Shown: piece by piece, positions 34,006-46,007 of the stretch
How the letters are laid out: each line of letters begins with the position of its first letter
How positions within the stretch are numbered: position 1 is the first letter of the stretch
Source of the DNA: an uncultured Aquimarina sp.
Lineage (GTDB): Bacteria > Bacteroidota > Bacteroidia > Flavobacteriales > Flavobacteriaceae
Direction: 5' to 3'
Assembly (NCBI GenBank): GCA_947495425.1
Contig: CANLYR010000016.1
Location: 1-64,000 of the forward strand
DNA: 64,000 nucleotides
Position numbers and translations under genes: made by a program
The notes under the pieces: generated by a model
The model's database searches: none
Seen by the model: only the letters and a program-made list of their open reading frames with translations
What the model was told of the DNA's origin: nothing

Positions 34006-34731
34006 TTAATATCTAAAAATATCTTCTTTTTGATTTTTGAGATCTTTGAAATACTTATATACTTTTCGAATTGAAATTTTAGACATCTGCTCCAAATATT
34101 CCAAATCGGGTTTCCCTATAAACTTATGAATTACATTATCCTCTATTTTAACCTGAATTATTGTGGTACGACCAAAACTCAACGACTCATATATCCCTAC
34201 TACCTTATTGCCGTTTATCTGATTAAGCGAATACGAGTTATAGAAAAATTCATAAAAATCCCTGCCTGGCTTGGTTTTGGTTTCTTCTATAACGATACCT
34301 CTTAACTCTAATCCATCATCAGATGGTTTTTCTTTAACGGTTTGAGGTTTTTTATTTATTTGTTCATTAAACACCAAACGGTCTTTTCCAACAATTTCTT
34401 CTTCTTCATATACGAGCAAAAGTACAACTACTTTATCAACACTATCTATATTTATCGAAGTTCTTGATAATTCTTTACTTTCATTTGCTTCTAAAGTAAA
34501 TCTACCTTCTTGATTATTTTTTGATACATTATTTTGGGCATCGGTTCTAAAAACTGAAAATACATACTTTAAGCTTTTATAAACCTCTGTAGTATTGGTA
34601 GCACTATTGATTAAAGAAACAGCCCCATTTATGGCTTCTGTTTTGATCTTGGCTACTACATCAACATTCGTAGATTGAGCAATCGAAACCTGAAAAACTA
34701 AAGCAAGAAGTATAATTAGTTTTAGTTTCAT
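34006..34731 (-). CDS. csgE: Curli periplasmic adaptor CsgE
   Basis: A 241-residue exported protein. The C-terminal half (about 135-235) is CsgE: GLELRGIVIEETKTKPGRDFYEFFYNSY then KVVGIYESLSFGRTTIIQVKIEDN, matching the family that caps CsgG and delivers curlin subunits. The N-terminal about 110 residues are extra, with strands like VVVLLLVYEEEEIVG, compared with about 130 residues in E. coli CsgE. Sits 17 bases after the csgB-like gene. Confidence 0.88.
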   Translation of the reverse strand: MKLKLIILLALVFQVSIAQSTNVDVVAKIKTEAINGAVSLINSATNTTEVYKSLKYVFSVFRTDAQNNVSKNNQEGRFTLEANESKELSRTSINIDSVDKVVVLLLVYEEEEIVGKDRLVFNEQINKKPQTVKEKPSDDGLELRGIVIEETKTKPGRDFYEFFYNSYSLNQINGNKVVGIYESLSFGRTTIIQVKIEDNVIHKFIGKPDLEYLEQMSKISIRKVYKYFKDLKNQKEDIFRY

Positions 34732-34748
34732 GTACTTTAATGTGCTTG

Positions 34749-35267
34749 TTAAAAACTTCTAACTATTATCGTTTTAGCATCACCAGACATTCTAAACTTC
34801 AGGTTCTTGGATAATTCATTGCTTCCATAACGTTGAAAAATTAAATTATCCCCATCTTGTATTAACTCTAAACTTGTAGATATATCAGAATTAAAAGAAA
34901 AATCAGTGACCGAATTATTATTACCGGTTTGTAAAATTACTTTTTCTATTGTTCTTGAAGACTCATCAATTTCGATATTATTTTCATTTCCGTTTTGTAA
35001 TATTTTAATATCAGAAGATTCTGCAACGATGTTGGATAAGACAGTATTGTCTGCTCCAATTTGTTGAATAAACACTGCGTTCGTTCCCTGTGCAACAGAT
35101 GCTCTGTTTATAGCAGCCTGAGACGTAGCATTATCAAGCTGCGACAGCGCTATGAATTTTTCCTGATCTGAAGCAATGCTTTGTCCTTTTTCATCCAAAC
35201 TTTGAGCATACGTTGTTGCTGAGATTGTAAAAAACAATACTACGGATATAAAAATAATATTCTTCAT
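34749..35267 (-). CDS. Minor curlin / nucleator-like protein
   Basis: A 172-residue exported protein with curlin-type repeats: VFIQQIGADNTVLS, IKILQNGNENNIEI, VILQTGNNNSVTDF and LELIQDGDNLIFQRYG, the Q-x-G-x-x-N spacing of CsgA/CsgB. It is smaller than the neighbouring major curlin and ends in a basic tail (AKTIIVRSF), as CsgB does. Its place between csgA-like and csgE supports a nucleator role. Sequence alone does not prove that it is CsgB rather than a second fibre subunit. Confidence 0.8.
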   Translation of the reverse strand: MKNIIFISVVLFFTISATTYAQSLDEKGQSIASDQEKFIALSQLDNATSQAAINRASVAQGTNAVFIQQIGADNTVLSNIVAESSDIKILQNGNENNIEIDESSRTIEKVILQTGNNNSVTDFSFNSDISTSLELIQDGDNLIFQRYGSNELSKNLKFRMSGDAKTIIVRSF

Positions 35268-35292
35268 CTTTTCTGAATTAAAAAACTAAGAA

Positions 35293-35324
35293 AGAGTTAC
35301 GGTTATAAATCTATAAACGTAACT
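35293..35324 (-). promoter_or_regulatory. Hairpin between major and minor curlin genes
   Basis: GAGTTACGGTTATA (35293-35306) faces TATAAACGTAACTC (35311-35324) over a 4-base loop, a 14-bp stem with one mismatch. On the minus strand it is followed by TTTCTTAGTTTTTT. It can partly terminate the transcript or protect the csgA mRNA 3' end, giving more major than minor curlin. Confidence 0.6.
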
Positions 35325-35356
35325 CCTTCAGTAAAGGATTATATTTTAAAAATGTA

Positions 35357-36937
35357 CTATAACGAACCTCTTTGTGTCACTATAGCGGCATTGTTAGCTC
35401 CTGATTGTAGGATTACACTATTATGCAAATCTCCCGTTTGTCTAACAAGTGTTGTATTCTCTGTTCCGAACTGAGTATCTTGAGCAACATTTTCATTACC
35501 TGATTGAAGTATATCACTCACATTACTAGCCCCATTTTGAGATGTAATTGCAGTATTCGCATCCCCTAACTGGATTTGATTAACTACATTATTTTCTCCA
35601 AACACCCCAGTAACACCTTCTTGAGAAGCTTCAGCGATGTTACCATTCCCAATTTGAATTTGTTGTGTAAAGTTACTTCCTCCAAAGAATCTTAGGTTTT
35701 GTGTCGCCGAAGCACTGTTACCGTTTCCTATTTGACCTTGATTAACTGTATTGTTGTCTTCTTCATGTTGAGCAGTGGCCTCATTTCTTTCTCCTAACTG
35801 TAGTTGATCTATTGTACCTCCTCTAGAATCAAACAAAAAACTACCTTGTATAGCAGTTGCAACATTACCAGCACCTGATTGGCTTTGGATATTTGTGTTA
35901 TCAGAACCATTCTGTGTTGCGTTAGCTACGTTACCCATACCAACTTGATCTTGATCAGAAGCATTGTTAGTTCCGCTTTGTGTTGCAGTAACTGAATTTT
36001 CATCGCCATTTTGTAATTGATCAGAAGCATTAGTGCTACCATTTTGTGAAGCTACAGCTGTGTTTCCGTTACCAACTTGCACCTGAATAGAAAAATTTTC
36101 TCCGCCAAAAGATCCTAAATTCTGTTCAGCACTTGCACTATTTGCATCCCCTAATTGTCCCTGACGAATAATATTGTTATCTTCTTCATGATTAGCAAAT
36201 GCTGTATTCTCGTCTCCAATTTGTATTTGCTGTACTTCTCCTCCTCTTGAAACGAAAGTCGCACTACCTTGCAAAGAACTTGCTACGTTACCGCCTCCAT
36301 CTTGATCCTGGATCAAAAAGTTACTTGCTCCCCATTGCTCTGCATCTGAAAGATTAGCATCTCCTAACTGGATTTGTTGTGAAGAATTACCCTCTCCAAC
36401 CTGTGCTATAGTAGCAGTATTAAATGCTCCTGCTTGATTACTATCGCTAAAATTAGAAGTTCCTTCTTGAGTAGCTGATGCCGAATTAGCATCACCAGTC
36501 TGTACTTGTAGTGCTAAATTCTCCATCCCTTCCTGAGATATTATGGCAGTATTACCATTTCCTTCTTGCAACTGATCTGCAACGTTACCACCGCCTAAAA
36601 ATTCAAGATTTTGTGCAGCAGTTGCAGAGTTTCCATCTCCAATTTGTACTTGAAATATTCCATTACTATCTTCTTCATGTTGCGCTGTAGCAGAGTTTTT
36701 AATTCCGGTTTGTGTTTGTTCTACAACACCATTTCTAGAGTCAAATGCTCCTCCTTGATTAGCTGTTGCGCTGTTGGCCATTCCTTCCTGAAGTGTAGCA
36801 GAGGAGTTAGTGCTACCTATTTGTGTAATATTAGCCAAGTTATCTTCCCCTGTTTGATTAACATTGCTAGCATTAGACTGTGCAACCATTACTGTAGCGC
36901 TTAATAAAGCTGCTATACTAAGAATTTTTGTTTTCAT
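35357..36937 (-). CDS. Major curlin-like amyloid subunit, long repeat form
   Basis: A 526-residue secreted fibre subunit. The signal peptide (about 1-19) is followed by about 22 curlin-type repeats of about 22 residues with Q-(I/V/L)-G-x-x-N-x-A pattern, for example QIGDGNSATAAQN. E. coli CsgA has five repeats. On top of this is a higher-order repeat: an SR-x-G turn, then a curlin repeat ending in HEED (87-90, 250-253, 391-394), an N-x-x-FGG insertion and further repeats. Cysteine is absent. First gene of the curli block, so it is expected to be the most expressed. Confidence 0.9.
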   Translation of the reverse strand: MKTKILSIAALLSATVMVAQSNASNVNQTGEDNLANITQIGSTNSSATLQEGMANSATANQGGAFDSRNGVVEQTQTGIKNSATAQHEEDSNGIFQVQIGDGNSATAAQNLEFLGGGNVADQLQEGNGNTAIISQEGMENLALQVQTGDANSASATQEGTSNFSDSNQAGAFNTATIAQVGEGNSSQQIQLGDANLSDAEQWGASNFLIQDQDGGGNVASSLQGSATFVSRGGEVQQIQIGDENTAFANHEEDNNIIRQGQLGDANSASAEQNLGSFGGENFSIQVQVGNGNTAVASQNGSTNASDQLQNGDENSVTATQSGTNNASDQDQVGMGNVANATQNGSDNTNIQSQSGAGNVATAIQGSFLFDSRGGTIDQLQLGERNEATAQHEEDNNTVNQGQIGNGNSASATQNLRFFGGSNFTQQIQIGNGNIAEASQEGVTGVFGENNVVNQIQLGDANTAITSQNGASNVSDILQSGNENVAQDTQFGTENTTLVRQTGDLHNSVILQSGANNAAIVTQRGSL

Positions 36938-37265: not shown

Positions 37266-39452
37266 TTATCGTGTAAAAAGCAACTCTCTATATTTGGTTA
37301 ATGGCCATAATTCATCATCAACGATTAATTCTAACTTATCACAACTGTATCTAATTTGATCAAAAAGCGGCCTTACTTTGTTACAATAATTAGCGGCTTT
37401 CTTATCTATATCAGTTAGTTTATTGGCTTTTCTTCGTTCATTCGTCATTTCATCTACCTTAGTATTGATTTTGCTGATATACTCAGAGATTTCTTCTATA
37501 ATTTGCATTTGCTCTTTGGCATATTTCATAAAATCTTTCCCATAGAGTTCTTTTAAACCAGAGACATTATTAATCAATGTATTTTGATACTTAATCGCAG
37601 TAGGGATGACATGATTACGAGCAATATCACCAAGTACACGTCCTTCGATTTGGATCCGCATTGCATATTCTTCTATCTCTATTTCATATCGAGCCTCGGA
37701 TTCGATTTTATTCATCACCCCCATTTTCTCAAAAAGATCTAGATTCTTTTTTGAAACTTTAGCTTTTAGAGCTTCTGGCGTTGTCTTGTTGTTGCTTAAT
37801 CCTCTTTTCTTAGCTTCTTTTTCCCATTCTTCACCGTAACCATTACCTTCAAAAAGAATATTTTTTGATTTCTTTATATACTCTCTCAATATATTAAATA
37901 CAGCTTCGTCTTTTTTCAGCCCTTTTTTATCTATTAAAGCGTCCACTTCTTTTTTAAAATCAAGTAACTGTTTCGCTACAATGGTATTGAGAATGGTCAT
38001 CGGATTCGCACAATTAGCTTTCGATCCAACTGCTCTGAATTCAAATTTATTTCCTGTAAAGGCAAATGGAGAAGTTCGATTACGATCTGTATTATCCAAT
38101 AAGATTTCAGGTATTTTACCCACCACATTTAATTTTAGGTCCGTTTTTTCTTGCGGGGATAATTTACCATCGGTTACCCCTTCTAATTCCTTAAGTACAG
38201 CGCTTAACTGCTGCCCAATAAATACAGACATGATAGCTGGAGGCGCTTCATTTGCTCCAAGACGATGATCATTACTAGCAGAAGCAATACCAGCTCTCAT
38301 TAATTCTTCATTATCATTGATTGCCTTAATTGTATTAATAAAAAATGTTAAAAACTGAAGATTACTCATTGGGGTTTTACCAGGTCCCAAAAGATTAACA
38401 CCTGTATTTGTTCCTAAAGACCAATTATTGTGTTTTCCTGATCCATTTACTCCAGCAAAGGGCTTCTCATGTAGCAATACTTTTAAATTATGCCTGGCGG
38501 CAACTTTTTCCATAACATCCATAAGTAATGAGTTATGATCTACTGCTAAATTTGTTTCTTCATATATAGGTGCGAGTTCAAATTGATTTGGAGCAACTTC
38601 ATTATGCCGTGTCTTCACCGGAATACCAAGCAACATACATTCTACTTCCAAATCCATCATATAGTTTAGGGCTCTTGTAGGTATGCTTCCAAAATAATGA
38701 TCGTCTAACTGCTGCCCTTTTGCCGAAGAATGGCCAAGTAGTGTTCTTCCTGTCATTACAATATCTGGTCTTGAATAGGCAAGCGCACTATCAATCAAAA
38801 AATACTCTTGTTCCCAACCCAAAGAAGCGTTTACTTTCTTTACATTTTTATCAAAATATTTTGCTACGGCTGTTGCTGCATGATCTACAGCTTGCAAAGC
38901 TCTTAATAGTGGTGTCTTATAATCTAATGCCTCACCCGTATAGGCTACAAAAACAGTAGGAATAGATAAGGTTGTACCATAAATAAATGCTGGAGAAGTA
39001 GGATCCCACGCAGTATATCCTCTAGCTTCAAATGTATTTCGAATTCCACCATTAGGAAAAGAAGAAGCATCAGGTTCTTGCTGTACCAATTGTCCCCCTC
39101 CAAATTTTTCTATAGCCTGCCCGTTACCAATGGTTTCAAAAAAAGCATCGTGCTTCTCTGCAGTAGCCCCGGTAAGTGGCTGAAACCAATGTGTATAGTG
39201 TGTTACTCCTTTTGATAATGCCCAATCTTTCATAGCAGAAGCTATTTGATCAGCTATCTTACGATCAATTTTAGCTCCTTTATTTATAGCATCCATTACA
39301 CTATTGTATGCATCTTTTGTTAAAGATTGAAGCATAGTTCTTTGATCGAAAACATTTTCACCAAATAATACAGAGCGACGTTCTGTCTCATTAACGATTA
39401 CAGAAGTGCGATGTAACGTTTCTTTTAAAGCTTGAAATCTGAGTGTTGACAT
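37266..39452 (-). CDS. glnN: Glutamine synthetase type III
   Basis: Large GSIII that makes glutamine from glutamate, ammonia and ATP. 728 residues, the usual length. Seen: the N-terminal GSIII-specific segment STLRFQALKETLHRTSV, the catalytic beta-barrel with LGWEQEYFLID, the ammonium/glutamate region VAPNQFELAPIYEE, FAGVNGSGKHNNWSL, RTSPFAFTGNKFEFRAVGS, and the helical C-terminus. It diverges from a type II glutamine synthetase across a 221-base control region. Confidence 0.97.
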   Translation of the reverse strand: MSTLRFQALKETLHRTSVIVNETERRSVLFGENVFDQRTMLQSLTKDAYNSVMDAINKGAKIDRKIADQIASAMKDWALSKGVTHYTHWFQPLTGATAEKHDAFFETIGNGQAIEKFGGGQLVQQEPDASSFPNGGIRNTFEARGYTAWDPTSPAFIYGTTLSIPTVFVAYTGEALDYKTPLLRALQAVDHAATAVAKYFDKNVKKVNASLGWEQEYFLIDSALAYSRPDIVMTGRTLLGHSSAKGQQLDDHYFGSIPTRALNYMMDLEVECMLLGIPVKTRHNEVAPNQFELAPIYEETNLAVDHNSLLMDVMEKVAARHNLKVLLHEKPFAGVNGSGKHNNWSLGTNTGVNLLGPGKTPMSNLQFLTFFINTIKAINDNEELMRAGIASASNDHRLGANEAPPAIMSVFIGQQLSAVLKELEGVTDGKLSPQEKTDLKLNVVGKIPEILLDNTDRNRTSPFAFTGNKFEFRAVGSKANCANPMTILNTIVAKQLLDFKKEVDALIDKKGLKKDEAVFNILREYIKKSKNILFEGNGYGEEWEKEAKKRGLSNNKTTPEALKAKVSKKNLDLFEKMGVMNKIESEARYEIEIEEYAMRIQIEGRVLGDIARNHVIPTAIKYQNTLINNVSGLKELYGKDFMKYAKEQMQIIEEISEYISKINTKVDEMTNERRKANKLTDIDKKAANYCNKVRPLFDQIRYSCDKLELIVDDELWPLTKYRELLFTR

Positions 39453-39471
39453 AATTATGTGAGTTTTACTG

Positions 39472-39479
39472 CAAATATA
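39472..39479 (-). promoter_or_regulatory. -7 promoter element for glnN
   Basis: On the minus strand TATATTTG followed by C, an exact TAnnTTTG match, 20 bases before the glnN ATG at 39452. Confidence 0.6.
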
Positions 39480-39542
39480 AAAGAAGTTTTTATTGTTGAT
39501 ATGAAAATTTTCTTCTTTTAAAATTAATTATTCTTAAAAATA

Positions 39543-39600
39543 CCCCCTAAAAAACAAGGGGGTTAATAAATTTTAAATAAAAAACACATATTAACCCCCT
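39543..39600. promoter_or_regulatory. Three G5/C5 half-sites between the glutamine synthetase promoters
   Basis: CCCCCT (39543-39548), AGGGGGTTAAT (39557-39567) and ATTAACCCCCT (39590-39600). The last two are a perfect 11-bp inverted repeat with 22 bases between, and the first pairs with the second over six bases. They lie between the two divergent -7 elements, 64-128 bases from glnN's and 29-86 from the type II gene's. A shared operator for a nitrogen regulator is the simplest reading. Confidence 0.6.
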
Positions 39601-39628
39601 CTTTTTTTATGTATATAAAAAATAAAGT

Positions 39629-39636
39629 TAAATTTG
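39629..39636 (+). promoter_or_regulatory. -7 promoter element for the type II glutamine synthetase
   Basis: TAAATTTG matches TAnnTTTG, 38 bases before the ATG at 39674 and downstream of the G5/C5 half-sites. Confidence 0.6.
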
Positions 39637-39673
39637 TTAACTATTAAAGAGTTCAATTTATAACGTATTAATT

Positions 39674-40699
39674 ATGAGTAAGTCTAAATTAGAGTATATC
39701 TGGCTAGATGGTTATGTGCCAACTGCTAATCTAAGAAGTAAAACAAAAGTTGAAGAAAATTTTAGCGGAAAGCTAGAAGATTGTCCAATGTGGTCTTTTG
39801 ATGGTAGTTCTACGAAACAAGCAATAGGCGGTTCTTCTGATTGTTTATTGAAGCCAGTTGCTATTTACCCTGATCCTTCGAGAAATAATGGTTATCTAGT
39901 AATGACAGAGGTTTTAAATGCTGATGGAACTCCTCATGAATCTAATGCTAGAGCTACAATCGATGATAATGATAATGATTTTTGGTTTGGTTTTGAACAA
40001 GAGTATTTTATTATGGATACCGCAACACAGTTACCGTTAGGGTTTCCTGTTGGTGGTTATCCTGGTCCACAAGGCATGTATTATTGCTCTGTAGGTGGAA
40101 GAAATACACACGGTAGAGATTTTGTTGAAGAACATGCAGATTTATGTATTGCAGCCGGGCTTAATTTTGAAGGAATTAATCAAGAAGTAGCTAGTGGGCA
40201 ATGGGAATTTCAATTGTTTGCAAAAGGAGCTAAAAAAGCAGGTGATGAAATATGGATAGCTCGATATTTATTAGACCGTCTAACAGAACAATACGGATAT
40301 TATATCGATTATCATCCAAAACCTATTAAGGGAGATTGGAATGGTTCTGGTATGCACGCTAACTTCTCTAACGAAGTATTAAGAACTTGTGGTTCTAAAG
40401 AAGTGTATGAAACAATTTGTGAAGCATTCAGACCAGTGACCAAAGAGCACATTGCTGTATATGGTGAGTTTAATGACCAAAGATTAACGGGAGAACACGA
40501 AACACAATCTATTCATGAATTCTCTTATGGTGTATCAGATAGAGGAGCATCGATAAGGATCCCTATTATTACTGTAGAGAACGGATGGAAAGGTTGGCTA
40601 GAAGATCGTCGTCCTGCATCAAATGGAGATCCTTATAAGATTGCAGCCAGAATTGTAAAAACTGTTAAAACTGCAGATGTACAAGCTGTTTTAGCATAA
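39674..40699 (+). CDS. Glutamine synthetase type II (eukaryotic-like)
   Basis: A 341-residue GSII. Seen: WSFDGSSTKQA (GSII N-terminal), FWFGFEQEYFIMD with the metal-binding glutamates, the eukaryotic-type PQGMYYCSVGGRN, INQEVASGQWEFQLF, GDWNGSGMHANFS, and the C-terminal SIRIPIITVENGWKGWLEDRRPASNGDPY that binds glutamate and ATP. Cytoplasmic. Divergent from glnN, so the cell carries two unrelated synthetases under linked control. Ends with a strong terminator. Confidence 0.97.
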   Translation: MSKSKLEYIWLDGYVPTANLRSKTKVEENFSGKLEDCPMWSFDGSSTKQAIGGSSDCLLKPVAIYPDPSRNNGYLVMTEVLNADGTPHESNARATIDDNDNDFWFGFEQEYFIMDTATQLPLGFPVGGYPGPQGMYYCSVGGRNTHGRDFVEEHADLCIAAGLNFEGINQEVASGQWEFQLFAKGAKKAGDEIWIARYLLDRLTEQYGYYIDYHPKPIKGDWNGSGMHANFSNEVLRTCGSKEVYETICEAFRPVTKEHIAVYGEFNDQRLTGEHETQSIHEFSYGVSDRGASIRIPIITVENGWKGWLEDRRPASNGDPYKIAARIVKTVKTADVQAVLA

Positions 40700-43802: not shown

Positions 43803-44798
43803 TTACCAAGTTAAACCATTATTAATCTGTTCTTGTAATTTGACAAGTTGTTTTATCAAATCATCCCAGGACAGAGATTCTCCTGCAAACATACTTTCTT
43901 GCATTTCCTGATAATCATTTTTATATGCTGTTATTATGTTGTCAGGCGGAATAATACGAAGACTTTCTGGTTTATGATGGTCATAATCTACTCCTCTTAT
44001 TGGGTTAAAAGATTTACGATGGTTGACAATGTTGTAAAAGAGATCTTTGTTTTGCAAAGCTTCTTTTGCATAAGGAGTATTCATAAGTCTTTCAATATCA
44101 TAAAGATGCCTACTTAGTCTTTCTATACGAATATCTTTCTTTTGCCATTCTTCATGTAAAAGAAAGATTTTTTCAAGAAAGGTTCGTTGTGGCAAAACAG
44201 TTTGCACTGGAAATGCAGCCTTTGCAAACGTTGAGTCATCAAACTCATTATCTATTATTGCTTTTATAAGTCGTTCTTCAAAAGGTTCTCTTAATGATCG
44301 GCAACTTATTTCTAAAAGTACTCTGGGAGGCAAGTATTCGATTTTTTGTGTCAATGGTTCATATGTTACATATACACGCAAAGGATCTGTATCGGAATCC
44401 TTATATGGTTCTACACCAATTGATGTGATTGGTAACTGTTCTGTTGTGATAATTACATGTACATCATTTAATAATTGATTGCTTATAAAGTTGGCACTTT
44501 TCTTTCTAAGGTTTTTTATTTGGGTACGACTAAGTTCTCCATCAAATTGAAAATACCCTCGATCAATAGCTAAATCAATATCTTCAGAAAAACGATTAAT
44601 AAGATTGTATCCTTTGCTTAGCGATGTACCTCCTTTAAATACAAGCGAATCTGCATATGGTAAGGAAAATACTATACGCAATAATTGGGTAACCCACCAG
44701 TCTTTTTCTATAGCAGAGGAAGGTAATCCCGTTTTTGCTGCAACTTGAGTGAATATTGCTTTTCGTTGAGTATCGCTCAGGGTAATAAAATCACTCAT
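43803..44798 (-). CDS. AbiEii-type nucleotidyltransferase toxin
   Basis: A 331-residue member of the AbiEii/AbiGii toxin family, a DNA polymerase-beta-like nucleotidyltransferase that acts through a type IV toxin-antitoxin system and can give phage abortive infection. Seen: the motif FKGGTSLSKGY (GGTSLS at about 56-61) and the catalytic acidic pair in SEDIDLAID (D73, D75). The C-terminal helical half has HEEWQKKDIRIERLSRHLYDI. Overlaps the antitoxin stop by 8 bases. Confidence 0.92.
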   Translation of the reverse strand: MSDFITLSDTQRKAIFTQVAAKTGLPSSAIEKDWWVTQLLRIVFSLPYADSLVFKGGTSLSKGYNLINRFSEDIDLAIDRGYFQFDGELSRTQIKNLRKKSANFISNQLLNDVHVIITTEQLPITSIGVEPYKDSDTDPLRVYVTYEPLTQKIEYLPPRVLLEISCRSLREPFEERLIKAIIDNEFDDSTFAKAAFPVQTVLPQRTFLEKIFLLHEEWQKKDIRIERLSRHLYDIERLMNTPYAKEALQNKDLFYNIVNHRKSFNPIRGVDYDHHKPESLRIIPPDNIITAYKNDYQEMQESMFAGESLSWDDLIKQLVKLQEQINNGLTW

Positions 44799-45411
44799 AA
44801 TAGTACATTAATAGATTACTAAATATCTCTTTAATCCAGGATGGCGCAAGTTTCATATCGTGATAGAGATGCTCTGGTTCTTCTTTTTTTAAAATCTGCT
44901 TGATTTTGTCCAGCTGTTCTTTCGTGACTTTGTCCTTTCCAATAGATTTAAGAGCCTGTATTACCAATCCACTTAATTTTCCTTTCGTAGATAAGTTTTT
45001 TGGACTTGCCTTTTTGAATTTAATATTGCGATTGCCTATTTTAATCGTTCTTGGACTTCCGTCTGTTAGGTAGACTTGGTTAAGAGGTACTTGTGTAGAC
45101 AAACCTAATACATTTAATGCTTGAATTCCGGTAGGTATAATTCGTGCATTGTCTCTGACAGCAATAGCCTTTGCAATTTCCTCTATTTCAGGAATAATAT
45201 TTCCTAGAAGTTTATCTTGTTTAGGATATAAATATATACCTCTAGCAAGTCTGACTACTATATTTTTTTCAGATAATCTTTTCAGAGCTTGCCTAATGGC
45301 AGCATCTTCTCCTAAGTATTCAAAGGTTTCAGTAAAAAAAATAAGTCCACGTTTCTTCTTGTTTTTAAGAAGGCTTTGTATTTGTTTTTCTATGCTATTG
45401 TGAACATTCAT
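44791..45411 (-). CDS. AbiEi-type antitoxin (DUF6088 family)
   Basis: With the ATG at 45411 it has 206 residues. The N-terminal winged helix (FTETFEYLGEDAAIRQALKRLSEKNIVVRLARGIYLYP) binds DNA; the C-terminal domain (NARIIPTGIQALNVLGLSTQVPLNQVYLTDGSPRTI) is the toxin-neutralising part. Earlier in-frame starts exist but lie upstream of the operator and have no family similarity. Known family behaviour is negative autoregulation through an inverted repeat at the promoter, which is visible here. Confidence 0.88.
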   Translation of the reverse strand: MNVHNSIEKQIQSLLKNKKKRGLIFFTETFEYLGEDAAIRQALKRLSEKNIVVRLARGIYLYPKQDKLLGNIIPEIEEIAKAIAVRDNARIIPTGIQALNVLGLSTQVPLNQVYLTDGSPRTIKIGNRNIKFKKASPKNLSTKGKLSGLVIQALKSIGKDKVTKEQLDKIKQILKKEEPEHLYHDMKLAPSWIKEIFSNLLMYYYE

Positions 45412-45453
45412 ATTGTCACAAAAGTAGTATATTTTTGTGACAATATGAATGTT
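45403..45453. promoter_or_regulatory. AbiE operator: perfect 21-bp inverted repeat
   Basis: 45403-45423 and 45433-45453 are exact reverse complements separated by 9 bases. The left arm contains the antitoxin ATG (45411) and most of a -7 element (TACTTTTG, minus strand 45419-45426), so the transcript would start at or next to the start codon. Occupancy by the antitoxin would block both transcription and possibly initiation. Confidence 0.85.
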
Positions 45454-45512
45454 TATTATTTGCTTTAATGAATTTAGCAGACAGTGTCTGCTAAATTTTT
45501 GTACTCTTAAAA

Positions 45513-46007
45513 TCATCTACGCTTTTTCCGAACTTTCTTCTTCTTTTTAATTTTTTGTTCTTCACGTAATAAATCTATTGCACTATCCACAGACATGCAA
45601 CAAATATTACCAAATAAACTCTCGCCATTAGCTTGCAATTCATATGCATTAATGAAATTATGATATGCTGTTATTGCTTTTGGATTATCTTTTGCTTCTA
45701 ATAAAGTCTTGTATGAAGATATTCTATACTCTTCTGCAAAGATATCGTTTACATATTGTTCGAGTACTTGATCTGAAACTGAAACTTCTTTATTCAGTTT
45801 ACTCCAAAATTCTTTACTCTTCTTTCTGGAATTCTTTTTATCGAATAGATTTCTTAATTCTCCTTTTTTGTATGCACTATAATCTTGTTGATTTTCCACA
45901 GGGTTCGCGCCTAAGGAATTTCCCTTTTCATCTGGTTGGTATAACCAGAATCCTTTTTTAAGTCTTTTCTTAGTCTTTCTTGGTAGTCTGAATTCCTTTA
46001 TCTTCAT
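45513..46007 (-). CDS. Hypothetical basic protein next to the PLD-family gene
   Basis: A 164-residue protein with a very basic C-terminus (KIKKKKKVRKKRR) and N-terminus (PRKTKKRLKKGFWLY). The middle includes NDIFAEEYRISSYKTLLEAKDNPKAITAYHNFINAYELQ, predicted helical. Not recognised. An upstream TTG (46022) would overlap the preceding stop by 4 bases, so coupling is possible; the ATG at 46007 is preferred. The basic ends suggest contact with nucleic acid or membrane; inference only. Confidence 0.6.
   Translation of the reverse strand: MKIKEFRLPRKTKKRLKKGFWLYQPDEKGNSLGANPVENQQDYSAYKKGELRNLFDKKNSRKKSKEFWSKLNKEVSVSDQVLEQYVNDIFAEEYRISSYKTLLEAKDNPKAITAYHNFINAYELQANGESLFGNICCMSVDSAIDLLREEQKIKKKKKVRKKRR

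Follow-up and report, generated by a model that had tools for sequence, protein, structure and literature searches.

The glutamine synthetase locus

The window, i.e., the whole 64,000-nucleotide stretch of Aquimarina DNA that was analysed, carries two divergent glutamine synthetase (GS) genes with a 221-bp intergenic region between them. The features discussed here are, in order of position:

37266..39452, minus strand: GSIII (glnN) gene, 728 aa (PF12437, PF18318, PF00120)
39472..39479, minus strand: predicted -7 box of GSIII, TATATTTG (from sequence; conserved by eye in Aquimarina-type loci)
39542..39563, no strand: predicted distal operator dyad ACCCCC-N10-GGGGGT, the conserved core of the putative array (from sequence comparison)
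39557..39568, plus strand: left arm of a 12-bp perfect inverted repeat, not conserved
39589..39600, minus strand: right arm of the same repeat, not conserved
39594..39600, plus strand: predicted proximal operator half-site ACCCCCT, at 52 bp from the dyad's left arm (a full dyad in some relatives)
39629..39636, plus strand: predicted -7 box of GSII, TAAATTTG, lying 35 bp beyond the half-site and 87 bp beyond the dyad start
39674..40699, plus strand: second GS gene, labelled GSII, 341 aa (PF00120, PF03951)

The 341-aa protein carries the Pfam domains Gln-synt_N and Gln-synt_C and is 96% identical to its A. algiphila counterpart. The name GSII is the label used in an earlier sequence-only reading of this DNA, and Pfam alone cannot split GS types I and II. 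That reading also proposed divergent TAnnTTTG promoters 150 bp apart, and both boxes are present, TATATTTG for GSIII and TAAATTTG for GSII. Passages of PMC9723704 give TAnnTTTG as the consensus of the Bacteroidota sigma-A -7 box and place the flavobacterial box at -12 to -5. Exact matches to this box occur in 62 of 86 GSII and 74 of 86 GSIII upstream regions.

Two neighbouring gene groups can be mentioned in passing. Next to GSIII are curli-like genes (34006-36937) which encode a CsgE-like protein of 241 aa and proteins of 172 and 526 aa with curlin repeats. At 43803-45516, an AbiEii-type nucleotidyltransferase toxin gene and its DUF6088/AbiEi-like partner make up a probable type IV toxin-antitoxin pair.

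The long inverted repeat

Between the promoters, the sequence-only reading picked out CCCCCT (39543-39548), AGGGGGTTAAT (39557-39567) and ATTAACCCCCT (39590-39600), all of which are there, and described the last two as a perfect 11-bp inverted repeat. The repeat is real and perfect, but its length is 12 bp (39557-39568 with 39589-39600). Inverted repeats of at least 11 bp with at least five G/C per arm appeared in 0 of 1000 dinucleotide shuffles of the 221-bp region; when arm composition was ignored, repeats of at least 11 bp appeared in 209 of 1000. None of 14 Aquimarina-type relatives has kept the 12-bp repeat, and we therefore rejected AGGGGGTTAAT/ATTAACCCCCT as a functional unit. A search for the exact 11-mer before other nitrogen genes, as the reading had suggested, came back empty: the 4.77-Mb assembly contains it in a single place, this locus.

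Inverted repeats near a gene start can also be an RNA element (a terminator, attenuator or riboswitch) instead of a protein site. A T run follows the right arm in the window's genus, CCCCC is able to pair with either G block, and the minus strand has two predicted terminator-like sites, compared with 0.2 in shuffles. We nonetheless consider an RNA element very improbable, given that both predicted -7 boxes are downstream of the dyads, the long stem is gone from all 14 relatives, and no Rfam family matches at its gathering score (the one sub-threshold match, to a microRNA family, reaches 29.4 of 74 bits).

A conserved dyad with a second site

By sequence comparison, the unit that relatives conserve is not the long repeat but the putative operator made up of the dyad at 39542-39563 and the half-site at 39594-39600. 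In general form this is a 20-22 bp dyad, ACCCC-N10-GGGGT, with a second copy (usually only half) 52 bp closer to GSII.

The comparison used the best 80 of a larger number of small-GS matches, from named genomes. A divergent GSIII lies beside the small GS in 72 of these 80, which together with the window gives 73 regions. The best ACCCC-N9..11-GGGGT match (maximum score 10) scored 10 in 17 regions, 9 in 41, 8 in 13 and 7 in 2. Thus 58 of the 73, the window (9/10) among them, scored at least 9, vs 11 of 1460 shuffles. A spacing of 10 was best for the dyad, and control arrangements with direct or everted arms had no such peak. The sequence-only reading had proposed aligning relatives to look for a shared operator, and such an alignment supports it, i.e., the dyad is conserved where the gene pair is kept.

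The second site also recurs. A single best third site could be named in 30 loci, 21 of which have a further ACCCC in the same direction at +51 to +53 bp; the other 43 loci tie for this site, and most ties include 51-54. In some Tenacibaculum loci (L050, L054), the proximal site is a full dyad.

The GTTAAT flank of the middle site shows some conservation of its own: the motif GTTAATAA is found in 31 of the 73 GSIII/GSII regions vs 3.6 in mononucleotide shuffles, and its window copy is at 39562-39569. It often follows the distal dyad directly and may be a second conserved element.

Spacing to the promoter boxes

The dyad has a fixed register with the GSII promoter. Among 51 loci in which TAnnTTTG is perfect, the box begins 86-88 bp from the dyad start in 40. 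The remaining distances are 89-91 bp (six loci), 34-37 bp (four loci in which the script took the proximal site as the dyad) and 114 bp (one locus). Anchoring 70 regions on the box and on a CCC approximately 35 bp before it gave an information profile with peaks outside these anchors, CCC near -86 and GGG near -72. Counting without anchors gave the same positions: among the 62 exact-box regions upstream of GSII, ACCC is at -34 to -37 in 49 and at -86 to -90 in 44, and GGGT is at -70 to -75 in 48. For glnK, the corresponding counts are 8, 6 and 7 in 8 regions with an exact box.

Many upstream regions of the target genes have no exact TAnnTTTG within 130 bp (24/86 for GSII, 11/19 for glnK, 16/20 for the porin described below, 23/25 for amtB, 15/16 for gltB and 7/7 for ald), so the fixed register is well shown for GSII only, plus glnK on few loci.

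For GSIII, the distance from dyad to box differs among genera and has several peaks; in the window's genus it departs from the GSII spacing by approximately 3-5 bp. Because strict register holds for the GSII promoter alone, it is less certain that both genes are controlled equally. The sites might even act on GSII only, GSIII being a mere neighbour with its own control, and the fixed register on one side and spread on the other would fit this. However, loci with only one of the two genes make it improbable. GSIII genes without an adjacent GSII still carry the dyad (L094, L103, L121, L136 and L138), with exact boxes 36 bp (L094), 46 bp (L121), 47 bp (L136), 89 bp (L138) and 90 bp (L103) from the dyad start. 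Conversely, of the eight GSII loci without a visible divergent GSIII, seven have no dyad, their best matches reaching 5-7 of 10. In the remaining one, L027, the dyad scores 8 and has the canonical geometry; only 296 bp of contig lie upstream there, however, and GSIII may simply be cut off. With the dyad mostly missing from GSII loci that lack GSIII and present at lone GSIII genes, both enzymes look like targets. The earlier claim of one operator array common to GSIII and GSII therefore holds in part: a conserved dyad in relatives and related sites at other nitrogen genes support it, while strict register with GSII alone makes the equal control of both genes less certain.

Dyads at other nitrogen genes

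Exact ACCCCN{8,11}GGGGT occurs in seven places in the window's genome vs three for the control. Three of the seven are at nitrogen genes:

Dyad on L087/L091: before glnK-amtB, with gltB divergent
Dyad on L089/L092: before a BBP2 porin gene beside a second glnK
Dyad on L083/L090: ahead of a 110-aa ORF with no Pfam match, inside the nitrate-assimilation cluster

The remaining four have no nitrogen gene next to them. At glnK, ACCC is at +53 and the box at +89. The porin dyad, read from the sequence by eye, is 35 bp before the near-box TAGTTTTA, with a degenerate second dyad farther up. The nitrate-cluster site has GGGT at +69, and an exact box is absent at the canonical place. We also looked for a site at ald of the window's own genome and found none. 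Elsewhere in the nitrate cluster, a 479-aa protein (L090:8317-9756) combines a nitrite/sulfite reductase half domain with a rubredoxin domain, and its neighbour is what we take to be the assimilatory nitrate reductase.

Across 120 family genomes, ACCCCTN{6,8}AGGGGT is present in 52, and a hand count gave 79 forward matches vs 23 for the reversed-pattern control. In 29 automatically chosen loci from this search, dyads with an 8-bp A/T-only spacer were beside nitrogen genes in 8 of 10 cases vs 0 of 19 for other dyads (Fisher 1e-5). In 30 automatically chosen loci, tandem sites with at most six further G/C were beside nitrogen genes in 10 of 11 cases vs 2 of 19 for the rest (Fisher 2e-5); the cut-off of six is arbitrary, and the two exceptions have 7 and 8.

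Tandem sites related to the GS-pair array precede glnK-amtB, the BBP2 porin/gltB and, in some genera, ald. We picked 20 A/T-rich tandems by eye, all of them beside nitrogen genes: 12 at the porin (11 of these with gltB on the other side), 3 at glnK-amtB, 3 at GSIII or the GS pair and 2 at ald. The loose tandem pattern is not clearly over control in many whole genomes, so it is no regulon predictor by itself. Among PII loci of the family, a perfect dyad occurs at L163, where its longer stem is terminator-like, and none occurs at L161 or L162 (glnK).

Single dyads of this kind also occur away from nitrogen genes, as would be expected if they were chance G/C runs in an A/T-rich spacer. As an account of the array, chance is already refuted by the 73-locus comparison, the fixed spacing and the association with nitrogen genes, and we give it practically no weight.

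The BBP2 beta-barrel porin recurs between gltB and amtB or glnK-amtB under dyads (L092:8697-9854; L296-L301, L306, L308, L310-L313). It may be an outer-membrane channel of the nitrogen response.

How the array might work

Judging from sequence alone, we think it likely that the intergenic region is an operator array of one DNA-binding protein which serves a nitrogen-assimilation regulon of the Flavobacteriaceae. Each ACCCC-N10-GGGGT dyad of 20 bp would be bound by a dimer. Where the sites are in tandem, the distal dyad would be followed 52 bp later by a proximal one, either full or half, and both would keep a fixed register with the GSII box. With that box at -12 to -5, the centres fall near -90 for the distal dyad and near -38 for the proximal site. 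At approximately 10.5 bp per turn the two are five turns apart, and they would therefore present themselves on one helical face. The sequence-only reading had suggested looping between sites, which is unnecessary at 52 bp.

The bound protein probably activates: the nearer site would cover the -33 region, and spacing this rigid would be needless for a repressor. The same overlap can also be read the other way, with the protein covering the GSII -33 region as a repressor when nitrogen is plentiful and the distal dyad stabilising it. We consider repression less likely, however, because the spacing to the box is rigid across genera, which repression does not need. GSIII would be controlled together with GSII. 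It is the target genes alone that point to nitrogen state as the signal.

Such an array would tie glutamine synthetases, PII-AmtB, glutamate synthase and the BBP2 porin into one response. The site is sharply defined and has fixed spacing, which should make the regulator findable by DNA affinity and the regulon readable from genomes.

Candidate regulators

Our search for the binding protein covered the HTH_8, Crp, AsnC and GerE families. We compared the persistence of regulators across eight genomes of the family, of which three measure 1.6-1.7 Mb. Five of the eight showed the operator (G008, G028, G043, G059 and G099).

One Lrp/AsnC protein, the L154 type, has a reciprocal best match in all eight genomes at 63-86% identity. 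A second, the L155 type, has one in six of the eight plus G008 (87%), with G059 not assessable. A sigma-54 activator without a receiver domain (L145 type) was found in six of eight, with the other two not assessable. The Crp HTH is in seven of eight genomes; the one without it, G095, is 83% complete and the operator was not shown there. The best reciprocal CRP-type pairs with the window's genome reach 27-33% identity, in four of eight genomes. GerE matches were found in all six genomes searched. The GerE response-regulator type is common to the window's genome and two of the five small genomes searched, G043 and G046 (46-49% identity), and is not among the fetched loci of the other three (G064, G095 and G099); other GerE types give at most 49% identity over partial alignments.

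Lrp/AsnC proteins, kept even in reduced genomes, are therefore the best candidates of the four families tested, and a member of this family is our leading, though tentative, guess for the operator-binding protein. Conservation of an Lrp orthologue where the operator is found is necessary but far from sufficient. The L154-type gene is near ald in the window's genome and several relatives, and not in all small genomes; this proximity, together with the operator at ald in some genera, is a link to Lrp that is suggestive only. As for autoregulation, none of the dyads with neighbours listed precedes a recognisable regulator gene.

The LuxR-type regulator of the nitrate cluster was rejected as the operator binder, because that cluster has a different palindrome. 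This palindrome, AAGTATTAATACTTA, occurs with related TACGTA/TACTTA repeats in the intergenic regions of the nitrate-assimilation cluster of the window's genome (L090:1794-1809), and the gene for the LuxR-type response regulator adjoins it (L090:1948-2637). The same 15-mer is upstream of glnK in another family member (L162:1948-1963). AAGTATTAATACTTA is possibly the operator of the LuxR-type response regulator.

Extent and literature

Flavobacteriaceae rank among the main degraders of marine algal biomass. To look beyond the family, we used 30 PII loci fetched from 99 genomes of the phylum, 26 of them outside Flavobacteriaceae. Within 500 bp upstream, the dyad score stays at 8 of 10 or below in 25 of these 26; L188 scores 9, and L187 and L176, from the same other family (f10), reach 8. 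Many of the Bacteroidota drawn had no GlnK match, so the PII sample is small. The matches in L176, L187 and L188 sit 187-191 bp ahead of the PII start, where the three loci share an inverted repeat resembling ACCCCAATACATTTGGGG.

Our literature search found no named regulator or operator of flavobacterial nitrogen assimilation, which is weak evidence since most subscription papers and preprints were outside its scope. In Prevotella, amtB, glnK, glnN and gltBD respond together to ammonium, although the direction differs between passages of the source (PMC5552732). Searching that text for "transcription factor" or "promoter" gave no match to either term.

Comparison with known nitrogen-control systems

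We scored consensus sites of known regulators in the window and the 73 loci against shuffles. None of the sigma-54/NtrC, GlnR/TnrA, NtcA, NrpR, CRP, Lrp and NarL sites was found in the window, and in the 73 loci they were at approximately shuffle level. The counts in the 73 loci were 2 for the -24/-12 promoter GG-N10-GC (3.8 in shuffles), 0 for the NtrC site TGCAC..GTGCA, 3 for GlnR/TnrA TGTNAN7TNACA (1.2 in shuffles), 4 for NtcA GTA-N8-TAC (2.7 in shuffles), 0 for CRP TGTGA-N6-TCACA and 0 for the E. coli Lrp consensus. Lrp sites differ between orthologues, so this last zero counts only against the E. coli form.

The NtrC/sigma-54 system of Proteobacteria is similar in that GS and glnK-amtB are under one nitrogen regulator with paired dyads. 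Here, however, the promoter has a TAnnTTTG sigma-A box, the sites are at -38 and -90, and there is no NtrC site or -24/-12 element. GlnR/TnrA (MerR family, Firmicutes) dyads sit near the genes for glutamine synthetase, the PII-ammonium transporter pair and gltB, as the dyads described here do, but the TGTNAN7TNACA site is missing from the window. NtcA (CRP family, cyanobacteria) shares a dyad near -40 that activates GS and ammonium transport genes. In contrast, GTA-N8-TAC is missing from the window, and there is no well-conserved CRP-type orthologue across the eight genomes.

The nearest geometry to the two-site array is that of E. coli class III CRP promoters, an activator type in which two tandem dimers bind approximately 52 bp apart. 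Lrp/AsnC regulators act on amino-acid and nitrogen targets, including ald, and bind cooperatively at multiple sites. They resemble the present case in these targets, and two Lrp types are conserved in reduced genomes, but the dyad arms are farther apart than in the 13-15-bp sites of the family.

Taken as a whole, the system may be one so far undescribed, in which a dedicated regulator (Lrp/AsnC or another family) activates flavobacterial sigma-A promoters via two same-face 20-bp dyads at approximately -38 and -90. We are evenly divided on whether this full picture is right; if it is, the regulator would be the flavobacterial counterpart of NtrC, GlnR or NtcA.
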